DNA of 64,000 nucleotides, taken from the NCBI RefSeq assembly GCF_028553805.1, contig NZ_CP067140.1, positions 3,348,001-3,412,000 on the forward strand, in the 5' to 3' direction. The translations under genes were made by a program, and so were the position numbers. Numbering within the stretch: the stretch's first letter is position 1; each line of letters begins with the position of its first letter. Under the pieces are notes generated by a model that searched no databases, was not told where the DNA came from, and saw nothing but the letters and a program-made list of their open reading frames with translations. Source of the DNA: Paracoccus saliphilus. Lineage in GTDB: Bacteria; Pseudomonadota; Alphaproteobacteria; Rhodobacterales; Rhodobacteraceae. Positions 11,128 to 51,004 of this stretch are shown piece after piece.

Positions 11128-11202
11128 ATGAACTCCATCATCTATATCATCGGTCTCGTGGTCGTGGTGCTGTTCATCCTGTCCTTCCTCGGGCTGCGCT
11201 GA
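11128..11202 (+). CDS. 24-residue single-pass membrane microprotein
   Basis: A 25-codon frame has an excellent ribosome-binding site (AAAGGAG, 7 nt before ATG). It encodes almost nothing but one hydrophobic helix (SIIYIIGLVVVVLFILSFLG) ending in Leu-Arg. A GC-rich hairpin follows within 6 nt of the stop. I recall similar short helices in other Rhodobacteraceae, but no function. It stands alone downstream of the isomerase-like gene. Coding status rests on the Shine-Dalgarno, the clean hydrophobic composition and the terminator-like hairpin. Confidence 0.7.
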   Translation: MNSIIYIIGLVVVVLFILSFLGLR

Positions 11203-11227: not shown

Positions 11228-11265
11228 CCACCCGAGGGACGGCGTGCAACGGCTGCGCACGCCGG

Positions 11266-11389
11266 TCGGATGCAACGCTCGCCGCAACGCACGCGGCTTG
11301 ACCAGCATTTGCTGGGAAATCCATTGCACAATGCGTACACCGCGTGTGCACAACATGTGCACAGGGCGTACACCGCTGTTGCATTGGAC
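11266..11389. repeat. Compound element, copy 1: palindrome plus 11-bp-periodic GTRCAC array
   Basis: The perfect palindrome CCAGCATTTGCTGG occupies 11302-11315. From 11324 six consecutive 11-bp units follow, starting TTGCAC (11324), GTACAC (11335), GTGCAC (11346), GTGCAC (11357), GTACAC (11368) and TTGCAT (11379). The remaining 5 bp of each unit vary. A TCGGATGC motif lies upstream (11266-11273). The same layout recurs at 50789-50910. Codons read across it give an improbable Cys-rich peptide, so it is not coding. The rest of the 11203-11528 gap shows nothing else I can name except a small palindrome (CACGAGTTCGTG). Confidence 0.75.
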
Positions 11390-17767: not shown

Positions 17768-17831
17768 TTCCACGAAACGGGCGCAGCAGCCTTTCGGGAC
17801 TCTGCCCCGTCGCCGTTCCGGCGACTCCCCG

Positions 17832-17853
17832 GGATATTTGGATGAAGAAGAAG
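17832..17853 (+). repeat. GGATATTT...GAAGAAGAAG repeat, single-arm copy after metK
   Basis: The 22-nt sequence reads GGATATTT, GG, then ATGAAGAAGAAG. It matches the arms of the element at 725-777 with one difference each. It sits 64 bp downstream of the metK stop and follows CCCCG, as the copy at 57829-57850 does in reverse. A degraded second arm (GTTCTTCTTTACTGAAC) lies about 40 bp downstream. Confidence 0.7.
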
Positions 17854-17923
17854 GGTCGCACGGTTTTGAAATCCTCCCAATTCGTGCCGCCTCGTTCTTC
17901 TTTACTGAACCCAGTTTTCCAGT

Positions 17924-50577: not shown

Positions 50578-50653
50578 TGGTGCCGGTGATAGGACTCGAA
50601 CCTACGACCCCATCATTACGAATGACGTGCTCTACCAGCTGAGCTACACCGGC
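50578..50653 (-). tRNA. tRNA-Thr (anticodon CGT)
   Basis: Read on the minus strand, the 76-nt cloverleaf starts GCCGGTG and ends CACCGGC-A-CCA, so the acceptor stem is perfect and CCA is encoded. The D arm (GCTCAGCTGGTAGAGC), the anticodon arm CGTCA-TTCGTAA-TGATG and the T arm (GTTCGAGTCC) are normal. Anticodon CGT reads threonine ACG. Its 3' end faces the gene-poor stretch and the accessory block. Confidence 0.97.
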
Positions 50654-50788
50654 GTCCAGTTATGGCGGGCCGAATAGCAGGTTCCGGCAGAAGGGGGAAG
50701 AGGGACAAGCACAATAATCGCTCTCGACCCGCATTTTCCCACGCTTCAGGACAGAGCCATAGGGCGCGCAACAGCAGTGAGCGTTGCA

Positions 50789-50910
50789 TCGGATGCCACT
50801 CACAACACTCGGCCCGATTCCGCCAGCAAATGCTGGGAATCCGGCGGCACACCCCGTACACCACGCGTGCACGGGGCGTACACAGCCCGTACACAGGCGG
50901 CGAACGGTGC
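50789..50910. repeat. Compound element, copy 2: palindrome plus 11-bp-periodic GTRCAC array
   Basis: CCAGCAAATGCTGG lies at 50823-50836, followed by 11-bp units starting GTACAC (50856), GTGCAC (50867), GTACAC (50878), GTACAC (50889) and GCGAAC (50900). A degenerate unit precedes at 50845. TCGGATGC lies upstream at 50789. The palindrome-to-array distance equals copy 1. The rest of the 50654-51004 gap shows nothing further. Confidence 0.75.
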
Positions 50911-51004
50911 GCAGGATTTCGTTGCAACAGAAAGGCGAAGCCCGAACCATGGAATGTCCGGGCTTCGCAGATCGATCATCCTCGTTCAAGCGGCTGGAAC
51001 CGGT

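Follow-up and report, generated by a model that had tools for sequence, protein, structure and literature searches.

The window, a stretch of 64,000 nucleotides of the Paracoccus saliphilus genome (C1:3348001-3412000; 4.62 Mb in two contigs, all of which was searched), contains two copies of a composite element in which a palindrome is followed by GTRCAC units at 11-bp steps. Both are oriented along the + strand. Copy 1 extends over positions 11245-11385, approximate ends taken from the consensus of 70 copies; the original prediction had bounded it at 11266-11389 and so left out the 5' part, which begins near 11245. This part carries GCAAC motifs at 11246, 11272, and 11284 (spanning 11246-11288 on the + strand, alignment A1), with no exact GTTGC arm in that span. 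Next come the unstranded palindrome CCAGCATTTGCTGG (11302-11315), a degenerate first unit TTGCAC (11324-11329, +), and the four GTRCAC units (11335-11373, +), which read GTACAC at 11335, GTGCAC at 11346 and 11357, and GTACAC at 11368. Every position previously given for the palindrome and these four units was verified, and the weak unit suggested at 11324 proved to sit on the degenerate first unit across the family alignment. A second weak unit had been suggested at 11379: The letters there read GTTGCA (11378-11383, +), and in alignment A1 they are those of the family's end module, albeit 7 bp nearer to the array than in the consensus; they may represent either a displaced end module or a weak sixth unit. 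Copy 1 is preceded by a 24-aa hydrophobic open reading frame (11128-11202, +), possibly a small membrane protein, and the 42 nt between its stop codon and the element contain a GC-rich inverted repeat, as judged by eye.

Copy 2 lies at 50767-50911 (+ strand, approximate ends). It comprises a 5' module with GCAAC at 50768 and GTTGC at 50783 (50768-50787, +), the unstranded palindrome CCAGCAAATGCTGG (50823-50836), and four GTRCAC units at 50856, 50867, 50878, and 50889 (50856-50894, +). The start of the palindrome is separated from the first unit by 33 bp in both copies, which bears out the earlier claim of a second copy in the same register. A tRNA gene (50581-50653, −; Rfam RF00005) has its 5' end 113 bp before copy 2. 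Both copies are matched by R1, a sequence model made from 31 in-register copies of this genome and favoring this genome, with 83.6 bits for copy 1 (G000:C1:3359238-3359389, window 11238-11389) and 106.5 bits for copy 2 (G000:C1:3398761-3398915, window 50761-50915).

Copy Number and Anatomy in Paracoccus saliphilus

The palindrome pattern occurs at 34 sites of the genome, versus none for a reversed-letter control, and at 31 of the 34 the array follows in register (the three sites without an array are L023, L031, and L041). The strict three-unit pattern gave 121 matches (51 forward, 70 reverse), and its control gave none in 125 Paracoccus genomes; chance, which would have refuted the original prediction, is thus excluded genome-wide for the periodicity of GTRCAC at 11 bp. 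A two-unit pattern allowing up to two mismatches, applied to the window only, gave a less striking result, with 20 matches versus a shuffle mean of 9.6, with three shuffles reaching 20.

Using R1, we found 70 strong copies, which are spread along most of the larger contig and confined to it. The lowest of them scores 66.6 bits and the next match 18.5 bits, with no intermediates among the candidates scored; these were 150 of 1857 from a first look, a depth at which degenerate copies could be missed. The last three, weak rows are the opposite strand of elements already listed.

The 70-copy consensus describes a sharply bounded unit, about 145 bp in length. It runs from CGCAACnGCAGCGTGCGTTGCAT through CGCGCAACA to the palindrome CCAGCAAATGCTGG, and from there through a 19-bp stretch to four GTRCAC units, each 11 bp from the next, and finally GGCAGCGCGCGTTGCGCG; the closing part is a GTTGC module, and GCAAC/GTTGC modules are also present at the 5' end. 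The 19-bp stretch contains the degenerate first unit, and a TGTGACA variant form is seen in 26 of 150 copies. Lengths are 143-147 bp in 61 of the 70 copies, 151 bp in two, and 121-135 bp in seven, each of the short copies having two or three exact units with the 11-bp step kept; the palindrome CCAGCAWWTGCTGG is exact in 31/70.

The commonest letter reaches a frequency of 99.1% at the fixed GT.CAC letters and 88% in the palindrome across the 70 copies, and 57% at the two free spacer letters and 40% in the flanks. Such a pattern favors DNA read by a putative protein over RNA, and register and unit conservation together support the original prediction of a compound DNA element to which a cooperative protein may bind.

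Subsets of copies have a common sequence past their 3' ends. We distinguish class A, whose module AGTAYGNNNNNCRTACT has 15 copies in the genome, all 67-71 bp 3' of an element, and, sorted by eye, class B (TGACGYNACGTCA) and class C (ATTCCATT with ATGGAATAA). That these modules are common to subsets of copies indicates past copying of units longer than the element. A further stretch, similar to GGATATTTGCATGAAGAAGAAGG and seen in the window at 17806-17854, recurs near the 3' ends of genes, several times facing an element. The downstream modules and the GCAAC/GTTGC end modules go beyond the original prediction, as do the placement after stop codons, the distribution in the genus, and the decay in P. 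methylarcula described below.

Position Relative to Genes

To describe the surroundings we used a home-made gene caller, which is blind to RNA genes, and took the beginning of each R1 match as the reference point for distances. The element is extragenic except for three of the 70 copies, which overlap a called gene. The upstream gene points into the element in 51/70 copies, and in 39 of those 51 (39/70 overall) the element begins within 30 nt of the stop codon, leaving little space between the two for a hairpin terminator; the other 19/70 have no gene directed into their 5' end. Among eighty copies chosen from a list of places by score in eleven other Paracoccus genomes, the upstream gene is directed into the element in 48/80, and 37 of those 48 begin no more than 30 nt past the stop codon.

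Gaps between convergent genes hold 32 of the 67 intergenic copies, whereas among 77 other gaps in the same loci and the window, none shorter than 150 bp, only 12 are convergent (odds ratio 5, p = 5e-5), and in 28 of the 32 the 5' end of the element is the end nearer to a gene. Orientation in tandem gaps splits 19 versus 9 in P. saliphilus and 17 versus 20 in the other species; with no clear rule there, a strand-specific stop is not supported.

Distribution of the Element

A search for further copies in this genome and in its relatives had been proposed, and R1 matches at E <= 1e-6 were obtained in 48 of 125 Paracoccus genomes, with at most 23 candidates scored per genome. The remaining 77/125 gave no match, indicating that the function is dispensable in the genus. 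The strict three-unit array was detected in 40/125 genomes and not in 85/125, and an exact scan of a collection of species genomes for the palindrome, a 19-bp gap, and two units returned 29 stretches, all of them from Paracoccus. In P. albicereus, where the copies resemble each other by eye, some are on a record titled as a plasmid.

Outside the genus, seven of 394 Rhodobacteraceae genomes besides our own match R1 with seven candidates scored per genome, mostly in the array part only. Nineteen array-only loci in other genera show similar units and spacers; an upstream gene points in at 12/19, two of these overlapping a called gene. The array may predate the composite element. An origin from phages or plasmids was rejected, the plasmid-titled record of P. 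albicereus notwithstanding: blastn with one copy as query gave no match in PLSDB and INPHARED, from which near relatives may be absent, a search of IMG/VR for the palindrome together with the first unit gave 0 exact matches, and the GTRCAC arrays with an 11-bp step in 22 viral stretches (L351-L372) have different surroundings by eye and appear to be other iterons.

The neighborhoods of 70 own copies, 80 foreign copies, and seven low-copy sites were also compared. This gave 64 cross-species pairs with at least two common genes: 27 have the same gap and orientation, 10 show an inversion, and the other 27 are mixed. A site beside odhB and lpd (read by eye) is common to four species in one orientation, with one gene of seven misfitting in one of six comparisons. 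No recurrent neighbor emerged as a cognate factor, the widest gene families being found in 3 species and the others listed in 2. Eight neighborhoods from genomes with few matches (L343-L350) contain mostly housekeeping-like genes, as judged by eye from the protein starts; in G008, which has a single R1 match, the gene beside the element (L345:9661-10735) begins like an XRE-type regulator by eye.

Decay in Paracoccus methylarcula

A comparison of gene ends across 125 genomes gives P. methylarcula as the closest relative (G052; 93-94%); around C3:173814 the sequence of G052 is identical over 1100 bases to L096, a record named for that species. Its genome has 9 R1 matches at E <= 0.001, versus 70 strong copies in P. 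saliphilus; two are strong (93.8 and 73.1 bits) and the rest do not exceed 55.1 bits. Every second of the 45 gene ends with an element within 60 nt was checked, 23 in total, of which 21 were matched in P. methylarcula and 18 had loci. A filter-free search of these 18 sites with R1, a model that leans towards P. saliphilus, revealed one near-intact copy (93.8 bits), in which the left arm of the palindrome has altered letters, and five remnants at E < 0.01. All six sit where the gene ends, in the orientation expected, and a seventh match at E = 0.031 is likewise in place; the other eleven sites gave no clear trace in this search. Some sites retain, by eye, the 5' GCAAC..GTTGC module minus the palindrome and array, and L096 of P. 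methylarcula has two units versus four at the matching site of P. saliphilus. In addition, the site e2663825 of P. saliphilus carries a class C module and its counterpart L249 a class A module.

Remnants at matching sites indicate that the element is older than the split of the two species, after which one lineage retained it and the other let it decay. It should be noted that an ancestral copy is suggested for the remnant sites only, as 12/18 sites have no remnant at E < 0.01. The pattern is what the loss of a trans-acting factor might leave behind.

A Candidate Barrier or Insulator at Gene Ends

The explanation that we put forward, tentatively and as somewhat short of probable, is a nucleoprotein site maintained by selection at the ends of genes, whose likeliest role is that of a transcription barrier or insulator. 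A putative DNA-binding protein would read the GTRCAC units, which are in phase with the helix, one beside another, and would also contact the central palindrome and the GCAAC/GTTGC ends, perhaps through partners. Bound to the array, it would form a rigid complex behind the stop codon, at which transcription could be blocked or insulated, above all between convergent genes. Selection would maintain the sites while the factor is present, and they would decay once it is lost. Several observations count against a barrier: Neutral insertion, too, is least harmful in convergent gaps, tandem gaps show no clear orientation rule, 19/70 copies have no gene directed into their 5' end, the palindrome is exact in only 31/70, and upstream of copy 1 there is space enough for a hairpin. 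The fuller version, in which a dedicated Paracoccus protein marks about seventy sites, mostly gene ends, to stop or insulate transcription, with the system gained and lost between species and an array-only form in other Rhodobacteraceae, is possible and less secure. The data agree best with a barrier or insulator where convergent transcripts meet, and almost as well with a REPIN-like population or a supercoiling site.

A REPIN- or BIME-like, nonautonomous mobile population, slowly copied by a putative enzyme that multiplies intact copies only, so that the motifs are kept, and decaying after that enzyme is lost, seems to us a rather doubtful but serious alternative. The copies are dispersed, extragenic, and patchy between species, as such a population would be, and the likeness among the P. 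albicereus copies with their partly plasmid-titled record, the past copying implied by the downstream modules, the decay in P. methylarcula, and the 10 inverted and 27 mixed neighborhood pairs out of 64 are all in line with it, whereas the 27/64 pairs that keep gap and orientation are not. Pairwise identity among the 70 copies averages 66% and reaches only 85% in the best pair, which marks the copies as old and speaks against recent copying, and decayed copies were not found among the scored candidates of P. saliphilus. No signal of target-site duplication was seen either (z reached 2.9 at best when about 850 pairings of length and offset were tried). Recent transposition, for which neither duplications nor near-identical copies were found, was accordingly rejected. 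The Y1_Tnp domain of RAYT enzymes (PF01797) is encoded in 11/125 Paracoccus genomes (6/48 of those positive for R1, versus 5/77 of the R1-negative ones); it has three partial matches in P. saliphilus and is absent from the high-copy genomes G007 and G022. A link to RAYT was rejected on these counts.

Alternatively, the array could hold a nucleoid protein or topoisomerase where positive supercoils collect, that is, downstream of genes and between convergent ones. The position at gene ends and in convergent gaps, the spread along most of the larger contig, and the exact 11-bp phasing would all suit such a site; we consider it a serious but rather unlikely alternative, with the 77/125 Paracoccus genomes without an R1 match counting against it.

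A transcribed 3'-UTR RNA element, or an intrinsic terminator built on the CCAGCA/TGCTGG hairpin, is very improbable. Placement after stop codons would agree with it, and some copies read like AAAACCCAGCAAATGCTGGGTTTT. Among the copies with the GCANNTGC core, to which this count was restricted (21 own and 20 foreign copies without the core were excluded), a U-tract-like run of at least four T in the 8 nt past the stem is present in 29/60 foreign and 15/49 own copies, which speaks partly for a terminator, although most own copies with the core lack it. None of the nine pairs predicted by RNAalifold from 31 copies shows compensatory change. Of the 60 strongest couplings by mutual information in 150 copies, 55 are within 9 columns; among the five longer ones, columns 122 and 134, which are 12 apart in successive spacers, are 70% complementary, in partial agreement with an RNA helix, and the others 37-57%; complementary pairs nowhere form a nested run. 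For five folds of single-strand DNA, z ranged from −1.2 to −2.5, Rfam has no match at the element, and a fixed 11-bp register has no evident reason in RNA. The check for covariation that had been proposed thus favors DNA: The register is exact, the unit letters are near-invariant while the spacers drift, and no helix covaries.

If the sites are protein-bound barriers, they would constitute a bacterial gene-end system that uses neither Rho nor an intrinsic hairpin. Even if the element is mobile in origin, the contrast between its 70 intact sites in one species and its decay at part of these sites in the neighboring species provides a natural experiment for finding a trans-acting factor by comparison of gene content.

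Comparison with Known Systems

The iteron arrays of replication origins and the 11-bp direct repeats of the OmpR/PhoB type are repeats one helical turn apart. The Paracoccus element has direct repeats with the same property; unlike them, it is scattered over 70 sites, many of which are at the ends of genes. No named element with this layout had been known for the original prediction, and this still stands after the Rfam search and limited searches of the literature on the motif, the genus, and repeat families, in which we found no description of it; 11-bp periodic patterns are the subject of one paper (PMC1242344).

REP, BIME, and REPIN sequences are dispersed, extragenic, composite, and patchy between species, and roles in termination and chromosome organization have been suggested for them (PMC2817692, PMC8049555); in all of this our element is alike, the roles proposed for it included. 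REPs usually exceed 100 copies per genome (PMC2817692) and feature a palindrome tagged with GTAG or CGTC (PMC3733652). Here, in contrast, the copies number 70, measure about 145 bp, and carry an 11-bp array in which unit letters are fixed and spacers drift, and the Y1 transposase family shows no clear connection with them.

The stoperators of mycobacteriophages are intergenic sites recognized by a protein and proposed to halt elongation; they are asymmetric 13-mers, predicted to bind a phage repressor monomer, with an orientation that follows transcription (PMC9283540). Unlike these, the Paracoccus element is composite with phased units, resides in cellular genomes, and failed the test of orientation in tandem gaps (19 vs. 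9 own, 17 vs. 20 foreign). A likeness in placement is possible: The element begins within 30 nt past the stop codon in 39/70 own and 37/80 foreign copies, but the gaps hold the 145-bp element, and 19/70 own copies have no gene pointing in. Both are many DNA sites between genes, and by analogy with the described stoperators the Paracoccus element, bound by its putative protein, may work in a similar way.
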